NCBI RefSeq assembly: GCF_001571405.1
Contig: NZ_BCNX01000006.1
Coordinates: forward strand, 62,001 to 126,000
Reading direction: 5' to 3'
Length of the DNA: 64,000 nucleotides
Origin: Methanoculleus thermophilus
Lineage (GTDB): Archaea; Halobacteriota; Methanomicrobia; Methanomicrobiales; Methanoculleaceae
In this document: piece after piece, positions 4,983 to 39,217 of the stretch
Position numbering within the stretch: position 1 is the first letter of the stretch
Layout of the letters: the number at the start of each line of letters is the position of its first letter
The notes under the pieces: generated by a model
Database searches by the model: none
Told to the model about the DNA's origin: nothing
The model's input: only the letters and a program-made list of their open reading frames with translations
Made by a program: the position numbers and the translations under genes

Positions 4983-4989
4983 GGAGGCG

Positions 4990-9077: not shown

Positions 9078-9130
9078 ATACATGAGGTGGGTGGCAGCAT
9101 GTTGGACCTGTTTGCCCGGGGGCACTGTGG

Positions 9131-10162
9131 ATGAGGAAACTCCTGAACACACTCTACGTAACCACGCCGGAGTCCTACCTGGCCCGCGACGGTGAGAACG
9201 TCGTTGTCAGGGTCGAGAACGAGGAGAAGTTCCGTATTCCTATCCATAATCTTGAGGCCATTGTCTGTTTCGGCTACATGGGGGCCAGTCCTCAACTGAT
9301 GCAGCTCTGCACCGAGAATAATGTCAGCCTCTCATTTTTATCGCCGTCTGGAAGGTTTCTGGGACGGGTCAGCGGCCGGGTGCGCGGCAATGTTTTGCTG
9401 CGGCGGACTCAGTACCTGCGAGCGGACAATCGCGAGGAGTCTCTGGAAATAGCAAAGGCTTTCATCATTGGTAAACTCGTGAACTGCCGAACAGTCCTCG
9501 GGAGAGGTATTCGCGATCACGGGGCGGTCATCGATTGCGATAAGGTTCGAGCGGCGGATGCTCTGCTGATCGAGAACCTCTTAAAGATCGAGGATTGCAC
9601 CTCTGCAGATATGCTCCGGGGGATCGAGGGGAACTGCGCTAAATTCTACTTCGTCACTCTTGATGAGTTGATCCTCAAGCAGAAGGATGATTTTTACCTG
9701 GTTGAACGAAACCGGAGGCCGCCGCTGGACAATATGAATGCGCTGCTCTCTTTTCTGTATACGCTCCTTGCCCACGATCTTGAGTCCGCCCTGGAGACTG
9801 TGGGGCTCGATCCTTACGTTGGGTTCTTCCACACCGACAGGCCCGGGCGGCCGAGCCTGGCGCTCGATATGATGGAGGAGCTTCGCCCGTTCATGGCTGA
9901 CCGTCTGGCGCTGAACCTTGTGAATATGAAGCAGATCAGCGGCAGGGATTTCATGAAGAAAGAGAATGGTGGGGTCATTCTGACCGACGATGGGCGTAAG
10001 GCGGTGATTGCTGCCTGGCAAAAGCGCAAACGGGAGATGATCACGCACCCGTATCTGAACGAGAAGATACCCATCGGACTGCTACCGTACGTGCAGGCGA
10101 TGCTGATGGCCCGTTTCCTGCGGGGTGATATTGACGGCTATCCGCCGTTCTTCATGAACTGA
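9131..10162 (+). CDS. cas1: CRISPR integrase Cas1 (type I-C)
   Basis: A 343-aa integrase that, with Cas2, inserts new spacers at the leader end. The metal-binding triad is visible: E166 in R-G-I-E-G, H234 in G-F-F-H-T-D-R-P-G-R and D246 in L-A-L-D-M-M-E. Length and order of motifs are normal. It is separated by 11 nt from cas2 and shares the operon with cas4. All three adaptation genes are intact, so the array could still be acquiring spacers. Confidence 0.95.
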   Translation: MRKLLNTLYVTTPESYLARDGENVVVRVENEEKFRIPIHNLEAIVCFGYMGASPQLMQLCTENNVSLSFLSPSGRFLGRVSGRVRGNVLLRRTQYLRADNREESLEIAKAFIIGKLVNCRTVLGRGIRDHGAVIDCDKVRAADALLIENLLKIEDCTSADMLRGIEGNCAKFYFVTLDELILKQKDDFYLVERNRRPPLDNMNALLSFLYTLLAHDLESALETVGLDPYVGFFHTDRPGRPSLALDMMEELRPFMADRLALNLVNMKQISGRDFMKKENGGVILTDDGRKAVIAAWQKRKREMITHPYLNEKIPIGLLPYVQAMLMARFLRGDIDGYPPFFMN

Positions 10163-10173
10163 GGTGTTTCGCA

Positions 10174-10464
10174 ATGATGGTTCTGATCACGTACGATGTC
10201 AATACTGAGACTGAAGAGGGAAAAAAGCGCCTTCGCAAGGTGGCAAAGGAGTGTGTGAACTATGGTCAACGGGTTCAGAACTCAGTCTTTGAGTGTCTGG
10301 TCGATCCTGCCCAGTTTGCGAAACTTAAACATACCCTCTGTGAAATAATTGACGAAGAGAAAGACAGCCTCCGGTTCTACTACCTGGGTAAGAACTGGAA
10401 GAACCGGGTGGAGCACTACGGTGCAAAAGCGGGGTACGATCCAGAAGGTTTATTAATTACGTAA
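10174..10464 (+). CDS. cas2: Cas2 adaptation subunit
   Basis: A 96-aa ferredoxin-fold protein that bridges two Cas1 dimers in the spacer-integration complex. It starts M-M-V-L-I-T-Y-D-V with the conserved Asp after the first beta strand, and ends in the L-R-F-Y-Y-L-G strand typical of type I-C Cas2. Either of the two adjacent ATGs (10174, 10177) may be used. Last gene of the cas operon; the leader begins directly after the stop. Confidence 0.94.
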   Translation: MMVLITYDVNTETEEGKKRLRKVAKECVNYGQRVQNSVFECLVDPAQFAKLKHTLCEIIDEEKDSLRFYYLGKNWKNRVEHYGAKAGYDPEGLLIT

Positions 10465-23118: not shown

Positions 23119-24537
23119 TTATACCATCTCACATTCATGGTAGCCCCATCGATCCAGCGGCAGTTTCTGTATCAGAAACTGGTATTTCCCGCGCCGCGTG
23201 CGGGGAATTTTTCCGACAAAGCGGATAGTCACATCTACGTCGCCTTCAAACTTCTCTTCGAGTTCGCGGAGTATCTGCTCCGTGTCGCGTCCGGTATACC
23301 CCGGTCTTTTCACGATCCGCATCAGAACCTCCCCGACCTTCTCCTGGTAGAACTGGAACTGCGCAACGTTGTCAAAGACGCCCGAGTGCATGTTCACCGA
23401 CGTCATCGGTATGAGCCGGTGGTCCTTGGTTACGATGAACTCCTGGAGCCTCCCCTCCACTTTCTCGAGCAGCGGATAGGCACGGCCACAGGAACACGAA
23501 CCGTCTCCGAGGACTGCGGCATCCATCGTCCGGTACCGGATGAGAGGGCAGATGTAGTTGGTGAGGCCCGTTGTGACCACCTCACCCATCACCCCCGGGG
23601 TCGTTATGGGCCTGCCGTCTCTCCCGATCAGTTCAACGATGCTGTACTCGGGGAAGATGTGGTAGTGCGTGCTCTCCTCGCACTCCCCGGCAAGCACCGT
23701 CTGCTCGGAGTTCCCGTACCAGGAGAATACCCGGCACCCGAAGGCCTTGGTGAGCAGGTCCCGCTGCCAGGGGTAGAGGTTCTCGGACCCGCAGAGGATT
23801 GCCTTGACGGTTGGAAACCGCGGGACGTCATGCTCCACCATGTATCGAGCGAGGATCACGGCCGCTGAGGGGTAAGCCTGGATGAACCGGGGCCGGAACC
23901 GCCGGATCCGGTCGATGTAGGCCGGGAGGGTCTCTTCGGTCATGTGATGGGAGGACATCAGCAGCCACCGGCCAAAGAGCGCTTTCTTCCAGTAGGTGCC
24001 GTTTGAGGCCGTCTCCACCGCATGGCCCCGAAGGATGACGCAGCGGTCGCGAAACCGGTAGCCGACACGATCCCACTGGGTCTTCATGAAGGCCCACTCC
24101 CGGGCCCGAGAGGCTCCTTTCTCGTAGTAGAACCCGACCGGGATGCCGGTGGACCCCCCGGTGGTGACGTACTCGAATGCCGACTCCGGGTAATTCCTGG
24201 CCTTCAGGTCGGGGAGGTTGGCCTGGACAATCTCCTTTGTCAGGAAGGGAAGAAGTTCGAGGTCTGCCGGGCTCGCGATGTCCTCCGGGACAAGTCTCCG
24301 CTCCCGGAAGACTCGACGGTAGTAGGGGACGTTTTCATAGGCGTGATCAAGCAGATGCGAGAGCGCCTCCATCTGATATGCCTCGAGTTTCTCCCGGCTC
24401 CACGTACGGGACCGGCGGAGGAACTCATAGGTCTTTCTGTAGACTGAGTATGCAGGTAGGATGTGAAGCGCCCGCATTGTCACTGAATGTTCGGGCAGGA
24501 GATCCTTCAATCCCCAACGAGTCATCCGCACACCCAT
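23119..24537 (-). CDS. PaaK/CapK-family adenylate-forming enzyme, copy 1
   Basis: A 472-aa relative of phenylacetate-CoA ligase, as found in capsule gene clusters (CapK). The nucleotide-binding loop is T-T-G-G-S-T-G-I-P-V-G near 145-155; adenylate motifs Y-G-N-S-E-Q-T and Y-R-T-M-D follow. It should activate a carboxylic acid as an acyl-AMP; the acceptor (CoA, a sugar amine or a carrier) is unknown. From about residue 55 to 370 it is almost identical to copies 2 and 3. The first 50 or so and last 100 residues differ. Its strand matches copies 2 and 3, but a FemAB-like gene in the opposite direction lies between. Confidence 0.82.
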   Translation of the reverse strand: MGVRMTRWGLKDLLPEHSVTMRALHILPAYSVYRKTYEFLRRSRTWSREKLEAYQMEALSHLLDHAYENVPYYRRVFRERRLVPEDIASPADLELLPFLTKEIVQANLPDLKARNYPESAFEYVTTGGSTGIPVGFYYEKGASRAREWAFMKTQWDRVGYRFRDRCVILRGHAVETASNGTYWKKALFGRWLLMSSHHMTEETLPAYIDRIRRFRPRFIQAYPSAAVILARYMVEHDVPRFPTVKAILCGSENLYPWQRDLLTKAFGCRVFSWYGNSEQTVLAGECEESTHYHIFPEYSIVELIGRDGRPITTPGVMGEVVTTGLTNYICPLIRYRTMDAAVLGDGSCSCGRAYPLLEKVEGRLQEFIVTKDHRLIPMTSVNMHSGVFDNVAQFQFYQEKVGEVLMRIVKRPGYTGRDTEQILRELEEKFEGDVDVTIRFVGKIPRTRRGKYQFLIQKLPLDRWGYHECEMV

Positions 24538-24647
24538 CGGGACTGCTCATATCAGTACTCAGCATTAAACGTTTTGCTTATGTGATAGCAATATCGCAAA
24601 ATTGCTGGTGAGGTCCGTTGAGATTTAACACGCTTAAACGAACTCTC

Positions 24648-24839
24648 TTAGAAGAAATCCTTAGAATATGGTATATTCACCTGATCCTGTCCAGTAGTCT
24701 GATAGAAATGCTTTAAAAACTCGGGAAATAGGCTCTTTTCCGAAAAAATGACCCATATGTCGCTGCATGTATTTGTATTATTGCCTTCCAATGACTGAAA
24801 CGAGATATCATCCAGGGCATGAAGGCGGAGCGCGACCAT
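24648..24839 (-). CDS. Short hypothetical protein, 63 aa
   Basis: ATG 24839 is preceded by GGGAGGTAGGGG, a good Shine-Dalgarno match with about 6-7 nt spacing, and the frame runs 63 codons to TAA at 24648. It reads M-V-A-L-R-L-H-A-L-D-D-I-S-F and ends K-D-F-F. The codons are AT-richer than those of the neighbours. A TATA-like ATATCTATATATCC lies 17-33 nt upstream of the ATG, so transcript start and Shine-Dalgarno sequence nearly coincide. No family recognised; it may be a small accessory protein or the 3' part of a decayed gene. An in-frame extension upstream to 25094 runs antisense to the FemAB gene and is not credible. Confidence 0.4.
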   Translation of the reverse strand: MVALRLHALDDISFQSLEGNNTNTCSDIWVIFSEKSLFPEFLKHFYQTTGQDQVNIPYSKDFF

Positions 24840-24853
24840 GCCCCTACCTCCCG

Positions 24854-24926
24854 TGTTTGGATATATAGATATTACGGCTGGTCCGCTGTGAGTTCTCCAG
24901 GCGGCCTGAAGAAAGGTATATAGGCC
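24854..24926. promoter_or_regulatory. Divergent promoter region
   Basis: Two TATA-like elements face apart. GGATATATAGATAT (24858-24871, read as its complement on the minus strand) lies before the 63-aa ORF. AAGGTATATAGGCC at 24913-24926 lies before the plus-strand FemAB-like gene, giving a leader of about 35 nt for the latter. Confidence 0.45.
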
Positions 24927-24983
24927 TGTGGGGTGATTGGAGGTCGCCGAATGACGAACGCGATAGCGAGACGTGGTGATTGA

Positions 24984-26000
24984 ATGACCGTGAGTAAAAT
25001 TGACGACAAGGATACCTGGGACACCTTCATCGACGAGAGCCCCTCCGGGCTCCTCTTTCATAAGTGGGATTACCTCCACCTGACGGCAAAACATACTGGG
25101 AGTACACTCCTTCCCTACGCGGTCTACAATGGGGATGAGATAATCTCCCTATTCCCGCTCTTCTATCGGCGGATACATGGCATTAATGCAATCTTCTCCC
25201 CGCCCCCTCTCACTGTGATACCCCATCTTGGGTGCGTAACGAGCAGAGAGTTTCAGGGATTCAAGCAGAGCAAGAAGGAGTTCCTGCTTGGGATGATGGC
25301 AAAAGAGATTCGGGAAGAAATCCAGGGACTTTCGCCGAATTACCTCTCGATAGCCTTTGTCCCGGAGTTTCGTGATATACGCCATTACCTCTGGGACCAG
25401 TGCAGCCCTATGGTCCGGTACACGTACACCATCAACCTCGAGCGCCCCCTTGAGGAGATCTGGAAGAATTTCCACTCCCTACTCCGAAAAAAACTAAAAA
25501 AAGAAGAAAAGGCCGGTCTAAGGCTGGAGAGAAGCAACGATACCGCAACACTCCACCGGCTCATCTCCGATCGCTACCGTGACCCATCGCTTGCGATTCC
25601 GCCGATAAAGCGAGAGTACCTCGACGACCTTGTTCGTGCCTATCCTGACAGGATCAGCGTCTATACACTTTACGATGCAGAGGATGAGATCACAGCCGTG
25701 GTGGCGGCCCAGGAGTACAAGCGGTTCCTGCTCTGGGTAGGTGCGCCGAAGATCGAGACTTCTCATGACGGAAACGCGTATCTCCAGTGGCTGCTTATTC
25801 AGCGTGCACAGGCCGAAGGCTACCGGACCTTCGAGAACATGGGTGCCAACAACCCGGATCTCATCTTCTTCAAGTCGAAGTTCAACCCCGATCTCCGGAC
25901 GTACTTCGAGATCGTGAAGAAAGATACCCTTGGTGCATTCTCCGAATGGGCGTATCTCTCCTTTGCCAAGCGGTTGATGATGACGACCGGCAGGATCTAA
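24984..26000 (+). CDS. FemAB-like GNAT-fold acyl/aminoacyltransferase
   Basis: A cytoplasmic protein of 338 aa in the FemAB/BioF2-type acetyltransferase group. The N-terminal half has the F-H-K-W-D-Y-L segment and L-F-P-L-F-Y-R-R strand typical of these proteins. The central basic stretch L-R-K-K-L-K-K-E-E-K-A-G-L matches the R-x2-[IV]-[KR]-K-A-x-[KR]-x-G-[VL] pattern of FemAB-like enzymes. The C-terminal half has A-Y-L-Q-W-L-L-I-Q-R-A-Q-A-E-G-Y and F-K-S-K-F-N-P. Known members add amino acids or acyl groups to peptidoglycan or cell-surface sugars. Sitting between CapK-type activating enzymes suggests it could transfer an activated acyl or amino-acid group, but that is inference. Confidence 0.78.
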   Translation: MTVSKIDDKDTWDTFIDESPSGLLFHKWDYLHLTAKHTGSTLLPYAVYNGDEIISLFPLFYRRIHGINAIFSPPPLTVIPHLGCVTSREFQGFKQSKKEFLLGMMAKEIREEIQGLSPNYLSIAFVPEFRDIRHYLWDQCSPMVRYTYTINLERPLEEIWKNFHSLLRKKLKKEEKAGLRLERSNDTATLHRLISDRYRDPSLAIPPIKREYLDDLVRAYPDRISVYTLYDAEDEITAVVAAQEYKRFLLWVGAPKIETSHDGNAYLQWLLIQRAQAEGYRTFENMGANNPDLIFFKSKFNPDLRTYFEIVKKDTLGAFSEWAYLSFAKRLMMTTGRI

Positions 26001-26146
26001 GAGGACTGCGGACTCTCGATTGGACCGGGGTACAGGGTCATAGGCCCGTCCCGGTCGGCACACTCCATATACTCGCCGAACGCATCCGGCGAAAAGATCC
26101 TCCCACCGTCCGCAGACACCGGCTGAAACACCGGTTCGCCTCCTGT

Positions 26147-27535
26147 CTAAAGATCCCCGAGCGTTATTGGGAGTTTCTGGATGAGGTAGCGGAACTTCCC
26201 ACCCTCGGTGCGCGGGATCTCGTCGACGAAGTGAACATGGACGTTCACATCATCCCCAAGTTGCCACCGGAGCTCCTGGGTCAACTGCAGGGTATCCTTC
26301 TCGGTGTAGGTCGGCTTTCTGACGATCTTCATGATCAGTTCGCCGATCTCTTCCTGGTACATCTGGAACTGTTTGATGTTCTCAAAGGCTCCTGACTCGT
26401 AGTTGATTGGGGTGACGGAGATCAGGTGCCCTCCCCGGGTCACGATGAACTCCTGAAGCCTTCCTTCCACTTTCTCAAGCAGCGGATACTCCCTTCCGCA
26501 CGAGCAGCGCTTCTCCGTCGCAACCGCGACATCCATGGTGCGGTAACGGATGAGGGGGCAGACGTAGTTCGTGAGGTTCGTGGTGACCACTTCCCCCATC
26601 GCCCCCGAACCCCTGACTGGCCTGCCGTCTCTCCCGATCAGTTCAACGATGCTGTACTCGGGGAAGATGTGGTAGTGCGTGCTCTCCTCGCATTCCCCGG
26701 CAAGCACCGTCTGCTCGGAGTTCCCGTACCAGGAGAAGACCCGGCACCCGAAGACCTCGGTGAGCAGACTCCGCTGCCAGGGATAGAGGTTCTCGGATCC
26801 GCAGAGGATTGCTTTGACGGTCGGGAACGGTTTAATCTCGTGTTCTCGCATGTATCGGGCGAGGATCACGGCCGTCGATGGATAGGCGTGGATGAACCGG
26901 GGCCGGAACCTCCGGATCCGGTCGATGTAGGCCGGGAGGGTCTCTTCGGTCATGTGATGGGAGGACATGACCAGCCACCGGCCAAAGAGTGCTTTCTTCC
27001 AGTAGATCCCGTTTGAGGCCGTCTCCACCACATGGCCCCGGAGGATGACGCAGCGATCGGTGAACCGGTAGCCGATGCGGTCCCATTGGGTCTTCATGAA
27101 GGCCCACTCCCGGGCCCGGGAGGCGCCTTTCTCGTAGTAAAAACCCATGGGAGTCCCGGTGGACCCGGATGTACGCACGTACTCGAATGCCGACTCGGGG
27201 TAGTTTCTGGCCTTCAGGTCGGGGAGGTTGGCCTGGACAATCTCCTTTGTCAGGAAGGGAAGAAGTTCGAGGTCTGACAGGGTGGCGATATCCTCGGGGA
27301 CAAGCCCCCGCTCCCGGAAGACCCGACGGTAGTAGGGGACGTTCTCGTAGGCGTGATCAAGCAGACGCGAGAGCGCCTCCATCTGGTAGGCCTCAAGTTC
27401 CTCCCGGCTCCACCACTGGGACTCCTGGAGGAACGTATACAGTTTGCGGTATGCATGGTAGGATGGCACCAGGCTGAGCGCTTTCATGGTGAGTGGGTTT
27501 GCACGCAGTGCCGCTGTTATGAAATCAGCCTTCAT
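26147..27535 (-). CDS. PaaK/CapK-family adenylate-forming enzyme, copy 2
   Basis: A 462-aa paralogue of copies 1 and 3. The loop here reads T-S-G-S-T-G-T-P-M-G-F-Y-Y-E-K, the form nearest to canonical PaaK; copies 1 and 3 have T-T-G-G-S-T-G-I-P-V. GGAGGT lies 5 nt before ATG 27535. The central region is nearly identical at DNA level to copy 1 (for example around 26631-26750 versus 23631-23750). The last 90 or so residues diverge, which in this family is the mobile C-terminal domain. It starts 15 nt after copy 3, so the two are surely co-transcribed. Substrate unknown. Confidence 0.82.
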   Translation of the reverse strand: MKADFITAALRANPLTMKALSLVPSYHAYRKLYTFLQESQWWSREELEAYQMEALSRLLDHAYENVPYYRRVFRERGLVPEDIATLSDLELLPFLTKEIVQANLPDLKARNYPESAFEYVRTSGSTGTPMGFYYEKGASRAREWAFMKTQWDRIGYRFTDRCVILRGHVVETASNGIYWKKALFGRWLVMSSHHMTEETLPAYIDRIRRFRPRFIHAYPSTAVILARYMREHEIKPFPTVKAILCGSENLYPWQRSLLTEVFGCRVFSWYGNSEQTVLAGECEESTHYHIFPEYSIVELIGRDGRPVRGSGAMGEVVTTNLTNYVCPLIRYRTMDVAVATEKRCSCGREYPLLEKVEGRLQEFIVTRGGHLISVTPINYESGAFENIKQFQMYQEEIGELIMKIVRKPTYTEKDTLQLTQELRWQLGDDVNVHVHFVDEIPRTEGGKFRYLIQKLPITLGDL

Positions 27536-27550
27536 TGCGCACCTCCGGCG

Positions 27551-28978
27551 TTAAGCCACGATATTCGGGGATATGTGCTCAAACTTGGCCATCTCCTCTT
27601 CGCCAAAACGCACAGGAAGGTTCTGGACGAAGTAGCGGTGCTTCCCCCGGGCGGTAAGTGGGATATGCTCAACGTATCGTATGGTGATGGTGACGTCGCT
27701 TCCGCAGCTTCGGCTCACTTCCTGGTAGAGGTACTCTGCATCCTGGCTGTTGAATCCGGGCTTTCTCACGATGTTCAGGATGACCTCCCCGACCTTCTCC
27801 TGGTAGAACTGGAACTGTTTAACATTATCGAAGGCGTCGGTATCGATGTTCATGGTAACCCCTGAGAGGAGTTCACCTCTGCAGGTCACGATGAAGTCCT
27901 GAACCCTCCCGTCAACCCGTTCGAGCAGTTGATATGAGCGGCCGCAGGTACAGGGTCCTTCGGCCTCCGTTGCAAGGTCCATTGTCCGGTAACGGATGAG
28001 GGGGCAGATGTAGTTGGTGAGGCCCGTTGTGACCACCTCACCCATCACCCCCGGTCTCGTTACAGGCCGACCGTCTCTCCCGATCAGTTCAACGATCCCG
28101 TACTCGGGGAAGATGTGGTAGTGCGTGCTCTCCTCGCACTCTCCGGCAAGCACCGTCTGCTCGGAGTTCCCGTACCAGGAGAAGACCCGGCATCCGAATG
28201 CCTCGGAAAGCAGGCTTCGCTGCCAGGGATAGAGGTTCTCGGACCCGCAGAGGATTGCTTTGAGGGTCGGGAACGGCTTGATCTCGTGCTCCATCATGTA
28301 TCGGGCGAGGATCACGGCCGTCGAGGGATAGGCCTGAATGAACCGGGGCCGGAACCTTCGGATCTCATCGATGTAGGCCGGGAGGGTCTCTTCGGTCATG
28401 TGATGGGAGGACATGACCAGCCACCGGCCAAAGAGCGTCTTCTTCCAGTAGATCTTGTCTTCCGGCGAGCCGACGATGTAGCCCCGGAGAATGACGCAGC
28501 GGTCGATGAACCGGTAGCCGACACGGTCCCAGAGGGTCTTCATGAAGGCCCACTCCCGGGCCCGGGAGGCTCCTTTTTCGTAGTAGAACCCGACCGGGAT
28601 GCCGGTGGACCCCCCGGTGGTGACGTACTCAAAGGCCGACTCGGGGTAGTTTTTAGCCTTCAGGTCGGGGAGATTGTTCTGCAGGTCTTCCCGGGTCAGG
28701 AATGGGAGGAGTTTGAGGTCATTTAAGGTGGCGATATCCTCGGGGACAAGTTCCCGCTCCCGAAAGACCCGGCGGTAGTAGGGGACGTTCTCGTAAGCGT
28801 GGTCGAGCAGGCGTCCGAGCGCCTCTACCTGGTAGGCCTCGATCTCCTCCCGGTTCCATGTGCGGGACTGGCAAAGAAGCGCATAGGTCTTTTTATACTC
28901 ATTATAGAATGGGAGGATGCTGAGAGCCCTTGTTGTGAATGAATCCCGGGTGCAGTTCATCGATCCAGAGTATACCAT
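27551..28978 (-). CDS. PaaK/CapK-family adenylate-forming enzyme, copy 3
   Basis: A 475-aa paralogue, first in the tandem on the minus strand. GAGGAG lies about 7 nt before ATG 28978. It shares the core with copies 1 and 2 (Y-E-N-V-P-Y-Y-R-R-V-F-R-E-R near 65 and the S-W-Y-G-N-S-E-Q-T motif near 285). In the segment after the A-F-M-K-T motif it reads I-V-G-S-P-E-D-K-I-Y-W where copies 1 and 2 read V-E-T-A-S-N-G-x-Y-W. Its C-terminal domain is unique. C-T-C-G-R in place of C-S-C-G-R keeps the two conserved cysteines that may bind metal. Confidence 0.82.
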   Translation of the reverse strand: MVYSGSMNCTRDSFTTRALSILPFYNEYKKTYALLCQSRTWNREEIEAYQVEALGRLLDHAYENVPYYRRVFRERELVPEDIATLNDLKLLPFLTREDLQNNLPDLKAKNYPESAFEYVTTGGSTGIPVGFYYEKGASRAREWAFMKTLWDRVGYRFIDRCVILRGYIVGSPEDKIYWKKTLFGRWLVMSSHHMTEETLPAYIDEIRRFRPRFIQAYPSTAVILARYMMEHEIKPFPTLKAILCGSENLYPWQRSLLSEAFGCRVFSWYGNSEQTVLAGECEESTHYHIFPEYGIVELIGRDGRPVTRPGVMGEVVTTGLTNYICPLIRYRTMDLATEAEGPCTCGRSYQLLERVDGRVQDFIVTCRGELLSGVTMNIDTDAFDNVKQFQFYQEKVGEVILNIVRKPGFNSQDAEYLYQEVSRSCGSDVTITIRYVEHIPLTARGKHRYFVQNLPVRFGEEEMAKFEHISPNIVA

Positions 28979-29432: not shown

Positions 29433-30650
29433 ATGTGTGCCCGGGTTGGGGGGGAGATAATTATTCTAGAGAAGGCTATTCCAGATACCAGTAGCAGTGC
29501 GGACGTCTTTACGGGTGTCCCAAGTGAACATGATGTCCTAAATGAAGTCCGAGCACTGGCCGGAGAGTTGCGCAGACAGAACGGGGTCGCTCCACAGGAT
29601 CTCGATTTTACAATTCCCATCGGTTGGGAAGAGCGGGTAGGTTACCTCGATGGTCAGCCGGTTCGACGGCTGATTATCTTTCTCCGATCCACTGGTTGTG
29701 AATGGGTCGAGAAGACCGGGGGCTGCACGATGTGCGGGTTTTACTGTGCGACGTCCCGGGGCAGAGCGGTCTCTGCGGAGGAGTATATCGCGCAGTTCGA
29801 GTACGTGATGGACGCCGTCGATCTCGGAGATTACCCGATCATCTCGATCTACAACGACGGGAATCTCTTCAACGAGCACGAGATGCCGGTCGCAGCCATC
29901 GAGAAGATCTGCTCATACATCAACAATTATCAAAACATCAAGAAGGTGGTCGTCGAATCAAGGATCGATTACTCGCCGGACGAACATGTGCTGAGGATGA
30001 AGAAGGCATTAGGAGGCCGGCAGCTCGAGGTGGCGTTCGGGTTTGAGTCCGCAAACCCCCTGGTGATGAACCTCTGCATCAACAAGGGGTTCTCTACGAA
30101 CAACTTCGATCACTTCCACTCAAGGATGCAGAGTATGGGTGTGCTGACAAAACCGCTTCTGCTCGTTAAACCGCCGTTCCTCACCGAGGCGGAGGCGGTA
30201 CGTGATATCGTCGAGACCGTCGCCTACTGTGTATCAAAGGGTATCGATTACGTGGATCTTGAGGTGACGACGGTCGAGAAGAACACCGTCGTGCACGAAC
30301 TCTGGAAGAACAACCTTTACCGCCCGTCGTGGCTCTGGAGCCTCGTCGACATCCTGCAGCAGTGCCGGGAGCGGTTCGGGGACCGTGCTCATGTCTACGT
30401 CAGCCCCTGGACCTACTCGGTCGAGTCGCTCGACTGGGCCAGGAACTGCGGGAAATGCGATGACGAGGTCATCAGGGCAATCGACCGCTACAACTGCCGC
30501 TTTGATGTAACGGAGTTCGATGGGCTGGACTGCTCGTGCCGCGACAGTGAGTGGAAAGAAGCCGTCACAAAGGCGGATCCCCGCAAGATCCCGGAGAGGA
30601 TCCGCGAGCAGCTGGCGTATGTCCGTAGTACCCGGATCTCATCACTGTAA
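29433..30650 (+). CDS. Radical SAM protein, RaSEA-like
   Basis: A 405-aa radical SAM enzyme. Cluster cysteines are C89, C98 and C101 (S-T-G-C-x8-C-x2-C-G-F), the spacing seen in archaeosine synthase partner RaSEA and Elp3-like relatives rather than the common Cx3Cx2C. Following text Y-N-D-G-N-L-F and F-G-F-E-S-A-N-P-L-V-M also fits that family. C-terminal cysteines in N-C-G-K-C-D and D-C-S-C could bind a second metal. RaSEA proper works on archaeosine in tRNA. This could be that enzyme or a paralogue modifying another substrate; its place beside the CapK block is the reason to consider the latter. Confidence 0.72.
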   Translation: MCARVGGEIIILEKAIPDTSSSADVFTGVPSEHDVLNEVRALAGELRRQNGVAPQDLDFTIPIGWEERVGYLDGQPVRRLIIFLRSTGCEWVEKTGGCTMCGFYCATSRGRAVSAEEYIAQFEYVMDAVDLGDYPIISIYNDGNLFNEHEMPVAAIEKICSYINNYQNIKKVVVESRIDYSPDEHVLRMKKALGGRQLEVAFGFESANPLVMNLCINKGFSTNNFDHFHSRMQSMGVLTKPLLLVKPPFLTEAEAVRDIVETVAYCVSKGIDYVDLEVTTVEKNTVVHELWKNNLYRPSWLWSLVDILQQCRERFGDRAHVYVSPWTYSVESLDWARNCGKCDDEVIRAIDRYNCRFDVTEFDGLDCSCRDSEWKEAVTKADPRKIPERIREQLAYVRSTRISSL

Positions 30651-30948: not shown

Positions 30949-33096
30949 TCACAACCCGACCCGCCCAAGATCGATCGTCCGGGGTGTTCCGGTATCGATC
31001 GAGTCCCACGCCGCAAACGTCGCAAGCGTCGTTGCGACGCTCGCCGGGAAGTCGGGCTCTTCGCCCTTCACGAACGCCAGGAGTTCCTCGAAAAACCCCT
31101 TCTCCTGGGTAAGCCACCGCCTCTCACGCGATGCCTTCCCGTCCCGCCGGAGTTCAAGGTCGCGAAAGTCGGTGATCCGCCCGACGGCGTTGCCGCAGAA
31201 GACCTCGATCATCTCTTTTGGGTAGGACCGATCCCCGAGGGTCGTGTAGGTGACTGTCCCGACCGACCCGTCGTCGAAGGCCAGGGTCGCCTGGAAATTG
31301 TCGTACTTTGGAAGATCCCCGGTCGGCTCGATAGCCCGGGCATAGACCTGGACCGGCCGCGCACCGGTGATGTACTGCATAAAGTCGATGAAGTGGCAGC
31401 ACTCCGAGATCAGCATCCCGCCGCCCTGCTCGCCGTCATGCACCCAGTGCCCGGACGGGATCTGCCCGGCGTTGACGCGGTAGTGCAGGACGGTCGGCGT
31501 CGTCCGGTTCGAAAAGAACTCCTTCATCCTCCGGGCAAGAGGGGAGTAGCGCCGATTGAACCCGACCATCAGCCGCTGCCCGGACTCGTTCCATGCGGAA
31601 ACGACCTCCTTAAGTTCCTCGATGCTGGTGGCAAGAGGCTTCTCCACGAAGACATCTTTTCCGGCACGGAGAGCCTCGGCCGCAAGGCTAGCATGCAGGT
31701 CGTTGCGGGTCGCGATCAGCACCGCATCGATCGCAGGATCGCTTAGAATCTCGCGGTAGTCGGTGGTGCAGTAGGAGAATCCGTACTTCTTCGCGACCGA
31801 TTGCGCCGAGAGCCCCGTCGCGGTCGCGACCGCCGCAAGGTCCGCCGGGAGTGCCGAAAGATGCGGGTAGAGAGAGGAGAGGGCGTGAACTCCGGCGCCG
31901 ATGCACCCTATTCTTCGAAGACCGGTGGAAGCCTTCCGCGGCTGCCTCCCGGACTCCGGGAGGCGAACGACGGTGCCGGAAGGGCCTGCACCGTTCGGGC
32001 TGTACTGGAGGAGGACCCCGATGAACCGTTCTCTACCTGTGCTGATGAGGTTGTAGGCCTCCGGTGCATCGTCAAGAGGGAAGGTGTGGGTGATCAGGGG
32101 AGCGAGATCGATCTTCTTCTGCTGTATCAGAGAGAGGAACGCCTCCATGTTCCTTCGCTCGGTCCAGCGGACGTATATCGGGTAATCGAGCCCCTTCTCC
32201 TCGTAGTTTCGATCGTAGCGTCCAGGGCCGTAGGACCGGGAGACGACGACCTCCGCCTCTTTCGCGTAGAAGACATCCCGGGGCAGGTTCATCCCCACAT
32301 TCCCGACGACCACGACCCTGCCCTGTTCCCGAACGAGGTGCCCGGCGGCCTCGACGGGGGCGCTTGACCGTGTGGCCGCGGTGATGATGACCGCGTCCGC
32401 CCCGAACGGCGAGAGGCTCTTCACCCTCTCGACGAGGCCGTCGTAGTTCGAGACGAGATCGGCCCCGAGTTTTTGAGCGAGCGAAAGCTTTCCCGGATCA
32501 ATATCGATCCCGATCACCCGGCACCCGGCGGCCTTGAGGATCTGGACGGATAGCAGCCCGATCAGCCCTAGCCCTATTACTGCGACGTTCTCGCCGACCG
32601 TGACCTTCGCGTTCCGGACTCCGTGCATCGCGATCGATCCGACGGTCGTAAACGCTGCTTCTCTGAGGCTGACGCCGTCCGGAACCTTGACACAGAGGTT
32701 TCGCGGTACCGCGACGTACTCCGCGTGCACCGCATACCCCGCTCCGCCGCAGGCGACACGGTCGCCGACCTCAAACTCATCGGACGCGGTCTGGACCACC
32801 GTGCCTGCACAACTGTAGCCGAGCGGCTCCGGCTTTGAGAGACGACCCATCGCCTGCCGGTACGCCGAGAGGGGGCCGTCGGTGCCGATTTTCTGGAGAA
32901 TTCTCTTCACGTCGTCGGGGCGTGCCTTCGCCTTGCCGACGAGCGACTGCTGTGCGAGGTTGATCAGCGACGACTCCGTGCCGGCGCTGATGAGGGAGTA
33001 AGCGTTCTCGACGACCACCCCCCGTGTTACGGTGGGAACGGGAACGTTCTCCACCCGGATAGACCCTGACTGCAAGTCGAGCAGTACCTGTTTCAT
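30949..33096 (-). CDS. Fused zinc-type dehydrogenase and Gfo/Idh/MocA oxidoreductase
   Basis: A bi-domain oxidoreductase of 715 aa. Residues 1-370 or so are a medium-chain dehydrogenase with the NAD(P) loop G-L-G-L-I-G-L-L near 165. Residues 390-715 are a Gfo/Idh/MocA domain with the nucleotide loop G-C-I-G-A-G-V-H and the E-K-P-L-A motif. Such fusions occur in polysaccharide clusters and probably oxidise or epimerise a sugar or sugar nucleotide. ATG 33096 is chosen: GGTGGAGA lies upstream and it overlaps the previous stop as ATGA. Last gene of the six-gene operon that starts at 39217. Confidence 0.85.
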   Translation of the reverse strand: MKQVLLDLQSGSIRVENVPVPTVTRGVVVENAYSLISAGTESSLINLAQQSLVGKAKARPDDVKRILQKIGTDGPLSAYRQAMGRLSKPEPLGYSCAGTVVQTASDEFEVGDRVACGGAGYAVHAEYVAVPRNLCVKVPDGVSLREAAFTTVGSIAMHGVRNAKVTVGENVAVIGLGLIGLLSVQILKAAGCRVIGIDIDPGKLSLAQKLGADLVSNYDGLVERVKSLSPFGADAVIITAATRSSAPVEAAGHLVREQGRVVVVGNVGMNLPRDVFYAKEAEVVVSRSYGPGRYDRNYEEKGLDYPIYVRWTERRNMEAFLSLIQQKKIDLAPLITHTFPLDDAPEAYNLISTGRERFIGVLLQYSPNGAGPSGTVVRLPESGRQPRKASTGLRRIGCIGAGVHALSSLYPHLSALPADLAAVATATGLSAQSVAKKYGFSYCTTDYREILSDPAIDAVLIATRNDLHASLAAEALRAGKDVFVEKPLATSIEELKEVVSAWNESGQRLMVGFNRRYSPLARRMKEFFSNRTTPTVLHYRVNAGQIPSGHWVHDGEQGGGMLISECCHFIDFMQYITGARPVQVYARAIEPTGDLPKYDNFQATLAFDDGSVGTVTYTTLGDRSYPKEMIEVFCGNAVGRITDFRDLELRRDGKASRERRWLTQEKGFFEELLAFVKGEEPDFPASVATTLATFAAWDSIDTGTPRTIDLGRVGL

Positions 33097-34283
33097 AAAT
33101 CTCCACCCCAGATTTGTGCTTGAGTGAGACAATCGAGAATTTCTGATGTCATGAAGAGATCGGGGAAGTTCTTCGACGGTTCCACGGTCGAGGACCGGAT
33201 CCCGAGCAGTCGACGGAGGACCTCAAACGACCGGGTCTCCGCGGTCTTTGCATAGCGCCTGCGGGCAAGCTCGCGGTAGACCGCGTAGCCGAACCGGAAC
33301 GTTCGATGCCGCAACGGATAGTCCCCGAGCGCTGCCGTCTTCGCCGCCGCCCTGACCGATGGGACGAGATCGGCCCACCGGCCCGGCTCCCACCTGGGGG
33401 CGATTCCTACCACGTTCTCTGCAAGCCACGCAAGAGCGAGATCGGCGTTCTCCCGGTAGCGGTCGTCCATCCTGGCCGCATAGGCAAAGGACGCGTGGGC
33501 GAAGGCGTAGGCGCCCGAGAGGCAGTATGCGAATGGAAGGCCGCTCCTCGACCAGTCGAACCGCCCGTCGGGGTATTGAGCGGCGGCGAGCCACCGTGCC
33601 CCCCGATCGATGCTCTCGTCGATCCGCTCGTCGCAGAGCACCTCGTTTGCCTTGGCGAGGTAATAGATCGTCACCCCCTGGTAGTGCACGCAAGGGATGT
33701 CGAAGACGAACGGGTACGTCCCCTTATCGACCGCATAGGGGTAGACGCCGTCTGGGCGCTGGTGGCGGACGACGTTCTCCGCCGCCCGGAGAGCGGCCGC
33801 CCGGGCAACCGGATCGTCGTAGCGCTCCGCGTACCGGGCAAGAAACGCTCCGCACGAGGCATCGACGTTCAGGTGGTCGGCGGTGTAGCCCGAGGACTTC
33901 AGGAAGTAGCCGGGCCGTTTTTCGGCCTCGATGACGTAGTCGCGGGCCCATTGGAGATTCTCCTCGTGCGGATACCGGTCCGCCGCCTCAAGGAGCGCAT
34001 CGCCGACAAAAGCCGTGATCAGGGCCGAGGGCTGGTTGTAGTTGACGTGGATCTCGTTGTAGGAGCCGTCGGGGTTCTGGCAAGCCGTAACGTACTCGAG
34101 GATAGGGCCCACGAGGGGATCGCCGCCGGACCGGAGCATCGCCTTTGTGACCTCGGCGTGGACGCGGTTGCGGACGATCGGAAAGACCGGGTCACGGATG
34201 TACGCAATCCCGCCGTCGACGACCGCAAGATCCCGGACCGCCCTGAGAGTCCGGGAGAGGAGCGATTTTATGGCTCCGTCCAT
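33093..34283 (-). CDS. Alpha-toroid (six-hairpin/prenyltransferase-like fold) protein
   Basis: A 396-aa protein with repeating helical hairpins, each ending in a Q-x-P-D-G-x-(Y/F) type turn: C-Q-N-P-D-G-S-Y near 68-76, H-Q-R-P-D-G-V-Y near 174-181 and A-Q-Y-P-D-G-R-F near 236-243. This pattern is typical of alpha/alpha toroids such as polysaccharide lyases, glycosidases and terpene cyclases. No signal peptide. In comparable bacterial clusters the equivalent slot beside the bi-domain oxidoreductase and GT4 often holds a heparinase-type protein, so a role in polysaccharide modification is plausible but not shown. It overlaps both neighbours (16 nt and 4 nt). Confidence 0.6.
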   Translation of the reverse strand: MDGAIKSLLSRTLRAVRDLAVVDGGIAYIRDPVFPIVRNRVHAEVTKAMLRSGGDPLVGPILEYVTACQNPDGSYNEIHVNYNQPSALITAFVGDALLEAADRYPHEENLQWARDYVIEAEKRPGYFLKSSGYTADHLNVDASCGAFLARYAERYDDPVARAAALRAAENVVRHQRPDGVYPYAVDKGTYPFVFDIPCVHYQGVTIYYLAKANEVLCDERIDESIDRGARWLAAAQYPDGRFDWSRSGLPFAYCLSGAYAFAHASFAYAARMDDRYRENADLALAWLAENVVGIAPRWEPGRWADLVPSVRAAAKTAALGDYPLRHRTFRFGYAVYRELARRRYAKTAETRSFEVLRRLLGIRSSTVEPSKNFPDLFMTSEILDCLTQAQIWGGDL

Positions 34284-35476
34284 GCCATCATCTCGATATG
34301 TTGCTTCAGTTTCTGAGCGATTGAGCGCCGGTCGTAGTGTTTCACGACATACTCGCGTCCACGCCGTCCCATCTCCTCTCTCCTCTCCGGGTCCTCAAGG
34401 AGCGATATGAGCGCCGCAGCGATCGCCTCCGGGGTATTCTCCGCAATGATCCCCGCACCCGACTTCTCGGCGAGATGGGCGATCTCGCCGCTTCCGCAGC
34501 CGACGAAGGGTATCCCGCAGGCCATATACTCGTATGCCTTGGTGGGTGCTGCGTACTCGAGGTTCTCGAGTTTCTTTAAGGGTGCCACACCGATCAGGGA
34601 CTCGGAGAGGAGCCGGGGAATCTCTTCACGTGGGAGGATGCCCGTGAAGATGACCGAGTCACTTATACTCTCAGCCTTCACGAGGTCTTTGAGGCGCTCC
34701 TCGATATCGCCGTCGCCGACGATGAGAAACTTCAGGTTGTATGTGCCGTTCATCGACTTGACGGCAAGGGCAACCTTATCAAGATCCTGGGCATGCCCGA
34801 CGTTGCCGGCATAGATGATCTGCTGCTTCTTTCCGTTGCCCCTTGGAGAGAAGAAGTCCGTGTTGACACCGTTTGGCATCAACTCCATCGGGGCCGTGAC
34901 CCGGTAGCGCGACGAGATCCTCCGCCCGAGTTCTTCTGTCGTGACCCCGACGAGATCGGCGCGCAGAAGGCACATCTGCTCGAACCTGCGGCTCAACCTC
35001 TCAAAAAGACTCCCCTCCCTAAGGAAGCCGAGGCTTATCGATGCATCGATCCAGAGGTCGCGGATATCGAGGATCCATTTCACCCGGCTTGTCCGCTTCA
35101 GGATGTAGCCCGGGATCCCGGTAAAGAGGGGCGGTGCCGAGGTCATGATCGCATCGAACCGGTTCCGGGCGAGCAGGAGCCAGAGTGCGGCATGGATGGG
35201 GAAGATCAGGTAATACCCCATCCTGCTTGCGAACCCCGGGTCCCTGGTGACCGGTTGCCACGTCCAGAGCCGCACGACCCGGACACCGTCGATCTCCTGC
35301 ACGTCCGACCGCTTCCAGGTGCGGCGAAACGATCCTGTGGGGAACGTGGGGTGAGGCGCAATCACGGTCACGTCGAGGCCGAGCCGTGCAAGGTGCACGG
35401 CGGTGTCGTATATCCGTGATGCGTTTCCCGACTTTTCTGGCGGATAATGTTGTGATACGATACAGACCCGTTTCAT
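34268..35476 (-). CDS. Glycosyltransferase family 4
   Basis: A 402-aa GT-B fold enzyme. The N-terminal S-Q-H-Y-P-P-E-K-S-G-N-A-S-R loop and the central I-Y-A-G-N-V-G-H-A-Q-D-L motif fit WecA-independent GT4 transferases. The donor-site segment is P-T-K-A-Y-E-Y-M-A-C-G-I-P near 320-332. It adds a sugar from a nucleotide donor to a growing glycan at the cytoplasmic face. ATG 35476 is preferred over 35488 because GAGGAG lies 4-5 nt before it. It follows wecC after 73 nt and overlaps the toroid gene by 16 nt. Confidence 0.88.
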   Translation of the reverse strand: MKRVCIVSQHYPPEKSGNASRIYDTAVHLARLGLDVTVIAPHPTFPTGSFRRTWKRSDVQEIDGVRVVRLWTWQPVTRDPGFASRMGYYLIFPIHAALWLLLARNRFDAIMTSAPPLFTGIPGYILKRTSRVKWILDIRDLWIDASISLGFLREGSLFERLSRRFEQMCLLRADLVGVTTEELGRRISSRYRVTAPMELMPNGVNTDFFSPRGNGKKQQIIYAGNVGHAQDLDKVALAVKSMNGTYNLKFLIVGDGDIEERLKDLVKAESISDSVIFTGILPREEIPRLLSESLIGVAPLKKLENLEYAAPTKAYEYMACGIPFVGCGSGEIAHLAEKSGAGIIAENTPEAIAAALISLLEDPERREEMGRRGREYVVKHYDRRSIAQKLKQHIEMMAWTEP

Positions 35477-35549
35477 GGAACTCCTCATGCAGTTCGAGTG
35501 CAGCCGTCGACGATGATCGATCCTCCCCGTGTTACGCCGTCATTGGGGA

Positions 35550-36923
35550 CTAGATAAAGCCCTCCCGCCCGTTCTGGGTGAGCAGGGTGAGTGACGGCGG
35601 CGATGTGGGCGCGATTGATTGTGCAGTATCTGTAGGATAGACGCTTGCCGGTGGAACGATCTCACCTGTGGGCACCGGTTGCACCGATGAACCGTCTCCG
35701 AGAACCCGGACGGCAAAACCCTGGTTGGCCCACCTCTCGTGGTCGAGAATGTTTCTGGTATCGATGACGAGCCTGGTTCTCACCTGGAGTCCCGCGGGCT
35801 CGAGCGTGCGAAACGCGTCATGGTCGGCGAGTACGACGATGCAGTCGCTTCCTGCGGCCGCGTCCGCCGCATCCATGAGGGGGTACGGGAACTCGCTCAC
35901 GTAAGGGTCGTGGCACCGGATGGCATACCCTTCATTCTCAGCAAGCTGGATAAACTTGAATGCCGGGCTCTCCCGGGTATCCCCGACGTTGCCTTTGTAG
36001 GCAACGCCAAAGATGCTGATTACCGGGTCTCTCACGCTGGCAAGCAGACCACGGACGATGTGCAGGAGATAATTCGGCATGGAGTCGTTGACTTCCCGCG
36101 CCGTAGAGACCATCCTGCACCGTGTCGAGTTCTCGGTCAGGAACCAGGGATCGATGGCGATGCAGTGTCCTCCCACACCAGGACCGGGGTTGAGGATAGA
36201 GACACGGGGATGCTTGTTTGCGAGGGTGATCGCCTCCCAGACGTTGATCCCGCACTCCTCGGCGAGCTGGGCGAACTCGTTTGCAAGCGCGATGTTTACG
36301 TCACGGCAGGTGTTCTCCATCAACTTGACGAACTCCGCCGTCCGTATATCGGTCTGGTAGATCTGGCCGCGGACGAAGGTCTGGTAGATCGATGTCGCCC
36401 TGTCGATAGAGTCCCGGTCGTATCCGCCAATGATACGGGAGTTTTCTGACATCTCCTGTATTGTGTGTCCGGGGATTGCTCGTTCGGGGCAATGGGCATA
36501 CAGGAATTCCCCGATCCTGACGCCGCTCTTCTCGAGTCTTGGGATGACGACCCGTTCGCTCGTTCCGGGCGGGACGGTCGATTCAAGAATGACAAGATTT
36601 CCTTTGCGAAGGTGGGGAACGATCGCGTCGGCGGCCGATTTGACGTATGTGAGGTTCGAGACCTTGGTTGCCGGATCCAGGGGCGTCGGGACGGCCATCA
36701 GAAATACATCTGCGGGTTCAGGCTCAATGCTTGCGGTAAATCGGTCTTTCGCCTCGCGATACAGATCCTCGATCCCGGGCTCCTTGAACGGGAGGTTCCC
36801 ATGGTTTAAGCAGTCTACCACATCCTGCTTCACATCGACACCCACGACATCTGCTCCATGGGCGGCAAAGAGCAGCGCGGTCGGCAGTCCAATATATCCT
36901 AATCCCAGTACACAGATCTTCAT
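35550..36923 (-). CDS. wecC: UDP-N-acetyl-D-mannosaminuronate dehydrogenase
   Basis: A nucleotide-sugar dehydrogenase that oxidises UDP-ManNAc to UDP-ManNAcA with NAD. NAD loop V-L-G-L-G-Y-I-G-L-P at the N-terminus; catalytic Cys in P-G-P-G-V-G-G-H-C-I-A-I-D-P-W-F; C-terminal UDP-binding domain with G-V-A-Y-K-G-N-V-G-D-T-R-E-S-P. ATG 36923 is favoured (GAGGAG 7 nt upstream); ATG 36929 lies one base after that sequence. The last 45 residues or so, rich in P, T and S, go beyond the usual end. It follows wecB by 19 nt, matching the biochemical order. Confidence 0.9.
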   Translation of the reverse strand: MKICVLGLGYIGLPTALLFAAHGADVVGVDVKQDVVDCLNHGNLPFKEPGIEDLYREAKDRFTASIEPEPADVFLMAVPTPLDPATKVSNLTYVKSAADAIVPHLRKGNLVILESTVPPGTSERVVIPRLEKSGVRIGEFLYAHCPERAIPGHTIQEMSENSRIIGGYDRDSIDRATSIYQTFVRGQIYQTDIRTAEFVKLMENTCRDVNIALANEFAQLAEECGINVWEAITLANKHPRVSILNPGPGVGGHCIAIDPWFLTENSTRCRMVSTAREVNDSMPNYLLHIVRGLLASVRDPVISIFGVAYKGNVGDTRESPAFKFIQLAENEGYAIRCHDPYVSEFPYPLMDAADAAAGSDCIVVLADHDAFRTLEPAGLQVRTRLVIDTRNILDHERWANQGFAVRVLGDGSSVQPVPTGEIVPPASVYPTDTAQSIAPTSPPSLTLLTQNGREGFI

Positions 36924-36942
36924 GCGCATTCTCCTCGTAGGG

Positions 36943-38022
36943 TTATCGGGACCGTGCGGCGGCGCAGACCATCACGATCATCTTTCCGGCGATTCCATCG
37001 CCGTAAGGGTTCATCCAGCCGGATTCCCTGGTTGCTGCGGCGCGAACCCCGGCAAGGATACTCGTCGAGTCGGCACCGACCAGAATGTTCGAGCCGACAT
37101 CCAGCGTCTCCGGGCGCTCCGTGTCATACCGCATCGTGGCGCACGGAACGCCGAGAATACATGTCTCCTCCTGAACACCGCCGGAGTCGGTCAGCACGAG
37201 TCTTGCCTGGGACTCCAGCTGCAGGAACTCTAAAAATCCGAATGGTTTGGTGAGATTCAGTCCGTTGACCCCGATGCCCAGTTCCTTGATCCTCTTTTCA
37301 GTCCTCGGATGAACCGGGAAGACGACCGGCATGGAGAACTCCTTCTGGACGCTCTCAAGACCCTTGAGGATTTCTTTGAGCCGTCCCCGGTTGTCCACGT
37401 TCTCCTGACGGTGAGCGGTGACGAGGAAGTATTCCCGGGGCTTGAGGTCGAGATCTTTTAAGACGTTGACTTTCCTCTTCGAGATCTCGAGATTCTGGTA
37501 CACCGCATCGACGATGGTGTTGCCGGTCGTGCAGATCTTAGAGCCTTCAATCCCCTCGGATATGAGGTTCTTTCTGGCATTCTCCGTCGGGGCAAAGAGG
37601 TAGTCTGAGATATGGTCGATGAGCACCCTGTTGATCTCCTCCGGCATCTGTCGATTGAAACTCCGAAGGCCAGCCTCGATATGGCCCACCCGCACATGGA
37701 GTTTCGATGCTGCGAGAGCCCCGGCCATAGCAGTGTTTGTATCCCCTTGCACCAGAACGATCTCGGGAGACTCCTTCATCAGGACGTCCTCGACGCCGGT
37801 CATGATCTTCGCTGTCTGGCTGGCATGGGTCCCGGGACCCACGTCGAGGTTGTAGTCCGGATCTGGCAGTTCAAGTTCCTCAAAGAAGACCCGGTCCATC
37901 TCGGGGGAATAATGCTGCCCGGTATGGAGGATGAAATAGTCCAGACCTCTGCGTTCACATTCCCGGATGACGGGAGACATCTTGATGATCTCCGGCCGCG
38001 TACCAAGTATGATTCCAATCAT
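36943..38022 (-). CDS. wecB: UDP-N-acetylglucosamine 2-epimerase (non-hydrolysing)
   Basis: Converts UDP-GlcNAc to UDP-ManNAc in the cytoplasm. The N-terminus I-I-L-G-T-R-P-E-I-I-K-M-S-P, the middle H-I-E-A-G-L-R-S and T-A-H-R-Q-E-N-V-D-N segments and the C-terminal D-S-G-G-V-Q-E-E loop are all intact. I start at ATG 38022, since homologues begin right at this point and GGAG precedes it by 6 nt; ATG 38034 is an alternative. Together with wecC it supplies UDP-ManNAcA, a building block of archaeal N-glycans and capsules. Confidence 0.92.
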   Translation of the reverse strand: MIGIILGTRPEIIKMSPVIRECERRGLDYFILHTGQHYSPEMDRVFFEELELPDPDYNLDVGPGTHASQTAKIMTGVEDVLMKESPEIVLVQGDTNTAMAGALAASKLHVRVGHIEAGLRSFNRQMPEEINRVLIDHISDYLFAPTENARKNLISEGIEGSKICTTGNTIVDAVYQNLEISKRKVNVLKDLDLKPREYFLVTAHRQENVDNRGRLKEILKGLESVQKEFSMPVVFPVHPRTEKRIKELGIGVNGLNLTKPFGFLEFLQLESQARLVLTDSGGVQEETCILGVPCATMRYDTERPETLDVGSNILVGADSTSILAGVRAAATRESGWMNPYGDGIAGKMIVMVCAAARSR

Positions 38023-38059
38023 TCTACGCTCCATCTCGTTGTTGTGCCCCTCATCCCTC

Positions 38060-39217
38060 TCACTCCTGCATTCTTGCAATAAGAGCGAGGGCTAGACCCA
38101 GTATGAGTGCAATTGTCCCCGGGATCAGGAAGAGCGACGCGAGCATACCCAGCTCGACCGGGACAAGACCCGTCGCACTGAAGTCCCAAAAGAACTGGAG
38201 CAGGACGAAGACGCCTGCGAAGATCGCGACGAGCCCGGGAAGACCAATACACAGGAGAGGTTTTCTCTCGATTGTGAGCCAGAATATCGACCCAAGTACC
38301 TCTATTCCATGGGATAGGGGGTTTTTCGTGGATGTGTGAAGGTCGTCACCATACTTACAGTTGATCGGTGTCTCTCCAACCCGCAGGTGCTTTTCCTGCG
38401 CGATCCGGAGCATCTCTGATTCGGTTGAGAAATCATCTTTTCGTAACGTATCAAGCATCGACTCCATTGTCTTCCGGTTCAGCGCCCGAAATCCGCACTG
38501 CGAGTCGGTGATCGAACTCCCGTTGCTGGTGGCCAGATCGAGCACAGCCCGCCCAAGCCTCCGATACAGGGGCATCTGGCCGAAGGTTCGAAACCCTATG
38601 ACGATGTCAGCAGTATCGGCGAGGATCGGTTCGGTCAGGAGAGGTATCTCCCTCGGGTTATGCTGACCGTCTCCATCCATGAAGACCAGACAGTCGTAAC
38701 CGTGTTCGATTGCGTATCTGAGAGCGTTCTTGATGCCCCGTCCTTTCCCCATCCGGCGGCCATGCGAGATGACGGTCGCACCGGCTTCCCGGGCGACCTT
38801 TGCGGTGCTGTCCGTACACCCATCATCGATCACCAGAACTTCGTCTGCATACAATCGGGCCGTCAGAACAACCGAGCCGATTGCAATCTCCTCATTAAAA
38901 CAGGGGATAGCGACAAGCGTTCTTATCCGGCCCGATCTTTTGGAGGGGAGGACTGCAGTCTCTGTGGTCTCGCTCACTATCCGCCAATGCTCCCTGGCTG
39001 TCGGCGTTCTCAATGGGGTAATCTGCTCCTGGACCTCGCAGTGGAGGGCAGGGATCTCGATCTGGCTCTCTTGCCCGACAAACCGGGGTGTATGTTCTTC
39101 CAACAATCTCTTATTCTGCGTATCTGTGTACTGCGGCGATGGTACCGTTGTTGCTTCGGTGAACCACCCCTCCAGGTGAGCGGGTGGACCCACCTGAACT
39201 GGATCCTTGTTGTACAT
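38060..39217 (-). CDS. Family 2 glycosyltransferase with C-terminal membrane anchor
   Basis: A 385-aa polyprenyl-phosphate sugar transferase-like protein. The GT-A domain starts near residue 100 (L-V-A-I-P-C-F-N-E-E), with D-D-G-C-T-D-S-T at 131-138 and the metal-binding D-G-D-G at 181-184. Two membrane segments at about 325-347 and 352-382 anchor it. The first 97 residues are polar, weakly conserved-looking and unusual for this family. Start ATG 39217 has GGGGGAAAG upstream. First gene of the glycan operon; it probably charges a lipid carrier (dolichyl phosphate in archaea) with a sugar. Confidence 0.85.
   Translation of the reverse strand: MYNKDPVQVGPPAHLEGWFTEATTVPSPQYTDTQNKRLLEEHTPRFVGQESQIEIPALHCEVQEQITPLRTPTAREHWRIVSETTETAVLPSKRSGRIRTLVAIPCFNEEIAIGSVVLTARLYADEVLVIDDGCTDSTAKVAREAGATVISHGRRMGKGRGIKNALRYAIEHGYDCLVFMDGDGQHNPREIPLLTEPILADTADIVIGFRTFGQMPLYRRLGRAVLDLATSNGSSITDSQCGFRALNRKTMESMLDTLRKDDFSTESEMLRIAQEKHLRVGETPINCKYGDDLHTSTKNPLSHGIEVLGSIFWLTIERKPLLCIGLPGLVAIFAGVFVLLQFFWDFSATGLVPVELGMLASLFLIPGTIALILGLALALIARMQE

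Follow-up and report, generated by a model that had tools for sequence, protein, structure and literature searches.

Evidence for recurrent gene conversion limited to the core of three PaaK-like adenylate-forming enzymes in Methanoculleus

Results

Three PaaK-like genes at one locus

The window analyzed here, a stretch of 64,000 nucleotides from Methanoculleus thermophilus (contig NZ_BCNX01000006.1), contains three complete open reading frames for PaaK-like adenylate-forming enzymes, all on the reverse strand: copy 1 (c1; 23119..24537, 472 amino acids), copy 2 (c2; 26147..27535, 462 amino acids), and copy 3 (c3; 27551..28978, 475 amino acids). The triplet consists of adenylate-forming enzymes of the PaaK branch of the ANL superfamily, and the corresponding claim of the original prediction is borne out both by the fold of the c2 model and by invariant motifs. 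The structural model of c2 (mean pLDDT 88) has the PaaK-branch fold, its best structural matches being PaaK1 (2y27), PaaK2 (2y4o), and BT_0428 (4rvn) with Z of 30–33 and ~25–29% identity, and a profile search matched 4r1l with an E of 3e-59. Motifs A3 (GSTG), A5 (YGxxE), A7 (YRTxD), and A8 (GR), together with the lysine of A10, show no variation in 61 of 61 complete copies, and by this motif content c1, c2, and c3 all look catalytically competent. Among the three, only c2 matches the Pfam AMP-binding profile above its cut-off.

While fold and motifs are shared with PaaK1, PaaK2, and BT_0428, the ligases differ from PaaK in an extra N-terminal extension of ~35–40 residues and in their setting, which is a glycan cluster and not aromatic degradation. 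Every curated NCBIfam equivalog stays far under its cut-off for c1, c2, and c3, the matches to the PaaK, DVU1553, and F390-synthetase models all being sub-threshold. Phenylacetate-CoA ligase proper (PaaK) was rejected with 91–115 bits against a cut-off of 646 and 98–112 bits against 700 (TIGR02155/NF041878; c2 reaches 115 against 646), and coenzyme F390 synthetase (TIGR03335) with 71–91 bits against a curated cut-off of 459. The DVU_1553 family AMP-dependent CoA ligase (NF045666) is the nearest NCBIfam model, but at 138–148 bits against a cut-off of 300 it was rejected as well.

Gene neighborhood and a probable link to surface glycans

The usual gene order is c3, c2, one or more FemAB genes, and c1; in most loci a radical-SAM gene lies on one side of this array and a ketoacid-oxidoreductase operon on the other. 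In the window, profile matches identify a FemAB/GNAT-type gene (Acetyltransf_6; 24984..26000, forward strand) between c1 and c2. Among the relatives (loci L035–L046) there are one to three such genes per species between c2 and c1; the one next to c1 is conserved, being 72–80% identical to that of the window, while the others are about 45–52% identical. Upstream of c3 lies a RaSEA-family radical SAM gene (29433..30650, forward strand; match to TIGR01210 above the curated cut-off), and an archaeosine RaSEA-family gene stands beside the ligases on the opposite strand in the sister genus and in all sufficiently long Methanoculleus loci.

By profile matches, the region 30949..39217 on the reverse strand is a surface-glycan type cluster encoding a bi-domain oxidoreductase, an alpha/alpha-toroid-like protein, a GT4, a UDP-sugar dehydrogenase, a UDP-GlcNAc 2-epimerase, and a GT2. 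The uncharacterized protein at 33093–34283 has weak squalene-cyclase-like (alpha/alpha toroid) similarity, and in Methanocalculus and Methanolobus, as in the window, such a gene is conserved next to that of the bi-domain oxidoreductase. Elsewhere in the window, positions 2790–10464 hold a CRISPR-Cas system with Cas3, Csd1 (Cas8c type), Cas4, and Cas1 genes.

The ligases, together with the adjacent FemAB-type transferases, probably modify a surface glycan. We propose this role because of the sugar-gene neighborhood and because ligases, FemAB genes, and toroid genes are absent jointly: the two Methanoculleus genomes, each ~99% complete (G002 and G023 types), that are without the ligases are also missing the FemAB and toroid genes. 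In the literature we found no usable description of a function for a PaaK-like/FemAB pairing in glycan clusters.

An alike core between distinct ends

The three genes are mosaics of an alike core and distinct N- and C-terminal ends, as originally described, and both DNA identity and synonymous sites confirm this. Identity and edge fit together place the homogenized core at c2 residues 42–335, which corresponds to 23521..24402 in c1, 26531..27412 in c2, and 27977..28858 in c3 (all reverse strand). Over these 882 nt the DNA identity in the window is 88.2% for c1–c2, 84.9% for c1–c3, and 85.3% for c2–c3, while outside the core it is 46–52% across the first ~41 codons and 57–59% across the last 127. 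Synonymous divergence in windows along the genes is not uniform but breaks at the core edges, with a pS of 0.07–0.5 in most core blocks and 0.55–1.1 outside. A three-part gene model yields likelihood ratios of 140–175, with best-fit edges at residues 31–42 on the left and 334–335 on the right, and uninterrupted stretches of identical polymorphic third positions exceed those of shuffled sequences in length (p 0.001–0.012). The C-terminal parts, from the end of the core to the stop (23119..23520 in c1, 26147..26530 in c2, and 27551..27976 in c3, reverse strand), each belong to one of three monophyletic kinds.

Some dimensions of the mosaic need correction. The N-terminal end is nearer 40 than 50 residues long and the C-terminal end comprises ~127 residues and not 90–100, and the description of the cores as near-identical does not hold for the window genome (85–88%), although it does for c1–c3 in five other genomes (95–98% in G003, G020, G029, G030, and G032). 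Three complete single-contig genomes (G003, G020, and G029) have the same core/end pattern, which is therefore not an assembly artifact; draft contigs are frequently broken within the core, as expected of near-identical repeats.

Concerted evolution across the genus

The three genes, or fragments of them, are found in most Methanoculleus genomes, with partial sets in about 30 species, and divergence was compared in the 15 genomes with complete triplets. Ortholog pS is level along the gene, mostly at 0.3–0.45 and with segment values of 0.32–0.52. Paralog pS within a genome is 0.12–0.36 in the core (0.12–0.19 for c1/c3) versus 0.49–0.82, near saturation, outside it, so that in the core, and only there, paralogs within a genome are closer at synonymous sites than orthologs are, which is the pattern of concerted evolution. 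Trees repeat this division. In the core DNA tree, c1 and c3 of one genome are sisters in 13 of the 15 genomes, and a tree of residues 235–326 has genome-triplet clades in 11 of 15; trees of the ends consist of three orthogroups, the nearest neighbor being the ortholog in 45 of 45 cases. AU tests on the core tree rejected a c1 clade (p-AU 2e-29) and a c3 clade (1e-36) but not c2 monophyly (p-AU 0.47), which indicates that the conversion of c2 is patchier; on the C-terminal tree, genome triplets were rejected in all four genomes tested. Single runs tests included some that were non-significant (in G011, G013, G014, and G025). The c1–c3 cores of G029 and G032 are 98% identical and their C-terminal parts 61–69%, from which we take conversion to be recent in some lineages.

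Recurrent ectopic gene conversion limited to the core is well supported by these comparisons, and the original prediction that gene conversion keeps the core alike stands on synonymous sites, core trees, AU tests, and tract edges. That the core is alike merely through stronger purifying selection there, with rate variation and no recombination, would agree with its catalytic motifs and with the somewhat lower ortholog pN in parts of it, but selection alone is refuted by synonymous sites and tree incongruence and is extremely improbable, given that ortholog pS is similar in core and ends, that paralog pS is mostly 2–5 fold lower in the core, and that paralogs group by genome in core trees. A scenario of recent duplications, arising independently species by species and with ends that then diverged rapidly or were replaced, fits the within-genome similarity of the core taken alone, but it is refuted by orthogroup monophyly at both ends and we give it practically no credence: the same three N- and C-terminal orthogroups, in the same gene order, extend genus-wide, two of them are already in the sister genus, and about 15 parallel events would each need the same three ends.

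Age and origin of the copies

The duplication is older than the species, since the N- and C-terminal orthogroups are monophyletic across the genus and two of the three are shared with the sister genus. The two sister-genus genomes (G061 and G062) contain c1- and c2-type copies only, in the same surroundings; the split between c1 and c2 is therefore older than the genus Methanoculleus, and either c3 is a younger copy or the sister genus has lost it. The core is homogenized there too, the third-position difference in the first core segment being 0.09–0.11 within a genome versus 0.41–0.45 between orthologs. Methanocalculus (L096) and Methanolobus (L098) have, in a related cluster, a single PaaK homolog immediately following the bi-domain oxidoreductase gene.

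The C-terminal kinds stay in place

In the ANL superfamily in general, the C-terminal domain controls how the acceptor gains access, since its rotation from one half-reaction to the other opens the acceptor tunnel; dimerization of PaaK enzymes is via the N-terminal region (PMC8388817). The original prediction had a constant core with exchanged C-terminal acceptor modules diversifying the enzymes, and the ends do differ strongly between copies. This reading is nevertheless very unlikely, and the claim of module swapping is not supported: among 85 C-terminal domains, drawn from 32 genomes, there are exactly three kinds, each monophyletic, with no case of exchange, the kind agreeing with gene position wherever position is known and the gene order remaining constant. 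No other C-terminal variants on the same core were present in relatives within this set, and residues 361–455 evolve under purifying selection between species (dN/dS 0.09–0.16). Judged from the sequences, it is the ends that are old, fixed, and vertically inherited and the core that is the mobile part.

Tract edges and a protected ATP loop in c2

The tract edges recur across species, mostly at about residues 29–42 on the left and 333–337 on the right. The left edge matches the onset of similarity to bacterial PaaK (about residue 37–40). The right edge lies just past the YRTxD motif and ~25 residues short of the hinge, which by motif is at about residue 361, so that the mobile domain begins at a different point from the edge. 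Four residues, C282, H289, C344, and C346 (c2 numbering; gene at 26147–27535), are invariant across the family, the first two lying inside the converted core and the last two just past the tract edge; they are a candidate for a metal site that would join the core and the C-terminal part, which we regard as possible.

Inside the core, c2 has an ATP loop that appears resistant to conversion (residues 121–130; 27146..27175, reverse strand), reading RTSGSTGTPM in c2 versus TTGGSTGIPV in c1 and c3, a feature that the original prediction had not noted. At four columns of this loop the 26 c2 sequences and the 35 c1/c3 sequences have no residue in common, the strictly private c2 residues being R/C121, S123, T128, and M130, and c2-type copies of the sister genus carry R121, S123, and M130. 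Columns 171, 175, 189, 194, and 216 distinguish c2 more softly. Among residues 41–326 we found no c1- or c3-diagnostic columns, and since c2 does have private ones, only the c1 and c3 cores are interchangeable. In the window, c1 appears from its alignment to have received c2 sequence at about residues 165–190, but it keeps the ATP loop of c1.

These observations also bear on the view that homogenization is a neutral by-product of the tandem layout, the ends having escaped once they were too diverged, in which case the pattern would be uninformative on function. Direct repeats of ~880 bp and high identity are expected to recombine readily, and the edges fall where identity drops, so that the boundary could be self-reinforcing. 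On the other hand, the adjacent FemAB paralogs diverge freely and are not homogenized, their third-position difference being 0.51 within a genome versus 0.25–0.30 between orthologs; c2 and c3 lie 15 bp apart, yet in most genomes their cores are less alike than those of the distant c1 and c3 (the window genome, with 85.3% versus 84.9%, is an exception); and the ATP loop of c2 is private within the converted region genus-wide, three of its four residues being found in the sister genus as well. The FemAB genes and the lower similarity of the c2–c3 cores lead us to reject tandem proximity as the sole cause, and the neutral by-product view as a whole is unlikely.

Discussion

We consider it highly probable that the locus holds an old triplet of carboxylate-activating ligases (PaaK type, forming an acyl-adenylate with ATP) that has evolved in concert in the core only, a pattern that suggests one common catalytic unit combined with three fixed, specialized ends. 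The core (about residues 42–335, the ATP- and substrate-binding domain up to YRTxD) has been copied between direct repeats in one lineage after another, most fully between c1 and c3; homologous recombination between the ~880-bp repeats, resolved without crossing over, would produce such a pattern. The N-terminal ~40 and the last ~125 residues are paralog-specific and vertically inherited, and c2 retains a private ATP loop, along with a few further residues as far as 216, although the sequence on either side is converted. Conversion would halt where divergence blocks the exchange of strands and where selection acts against changes. Since crossing-over would delete genes between the repeats, the steady three copies suggest that each end type is needed or selected for.

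For the enzymes themselves, c1 and c3 may activate one and the same acid in an identical first half-reaction, with ends that differ in acceptor, partner, or location, and the active site of c2 may be tuned differently. An extension that could be called "one engine, three heads" would have conversion actively keep a shared activation and dimerization core, with c1 and c3 interchangeable or forming mixed dimers, the three end modules sending the same acyl group to different acceptors or sites, and c2 opting out via its protected ATP loop; we regard this as quite unlikely.

The nearest precedent comes from the same archaeal order. The tandem paralogs mtrA-1 and mtrA-2, described in 2015, have one domain under long-lasting gene conversion and another that is distinct (PMC4632066), and thus share with the ligases a domain-limited homogenization of tandem paralogs. 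In mtrA, however, there are two copies and the distinct part is a different transmembrane domain gained by fusion (PMC4632066), whereas the ligases number three (or two), are homologous in all their parts, and show protection at both ends and, in one copy, also at the ATP loop within the converted core; they are also enzymes of a surface-glycan type and are missing from some species. A 2018 survey of long-lasting concerted evolution in prokaryotes reported 26 genes (PMC6053082), and the ligases resemble its cases in that, across at least one genus, paralogs from a single species resemble each other more than genes from different species do. The main text of that survey contains neither "ligase" nor "Methanoculleus", and the ligase family therefore appears to lie outside its 26 genes. 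In the adenylation domains of NRPS, intragenomic recombination swaps cores between paralogs while interfaces are kept (PMC9205934). Exchange of adenylation cores between paralogs is common to both systems, but in NRPS it changes substrate specificity inside a multidomain assembly line, whereas the ligases are free-standing and recurrently homogenized. New in the present case are the recurring tract edges, the private residues of c2 in and downstream of the ATP loop, and the same process acting on two copies in the sister genus.

Taken as a whole, the evolutionary side of the case is well supported, whereas its biochemical side is speculative. One practical consequence is that core-based trees of c1, c2, and c3 are misleading. 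The 15 complete triplets and the partial sets in about 30 species amount to a replicated natural experiment, in which recombination has repeatedly tested which parts can be exchanged: for c1 and c3 the core in its entirety, and for c2 everything except the ATP loop and a few residues close to it, with both ends as the parts that recombination cannot exchange between paralogs. From the outcome, module boundaries and residues that set specificity can be predicted for an uncharacterized group of enzymes. By adding another example of domain-limited concerted evolution to the one from this methanogen order, it also makes the cause of such evolution testable.
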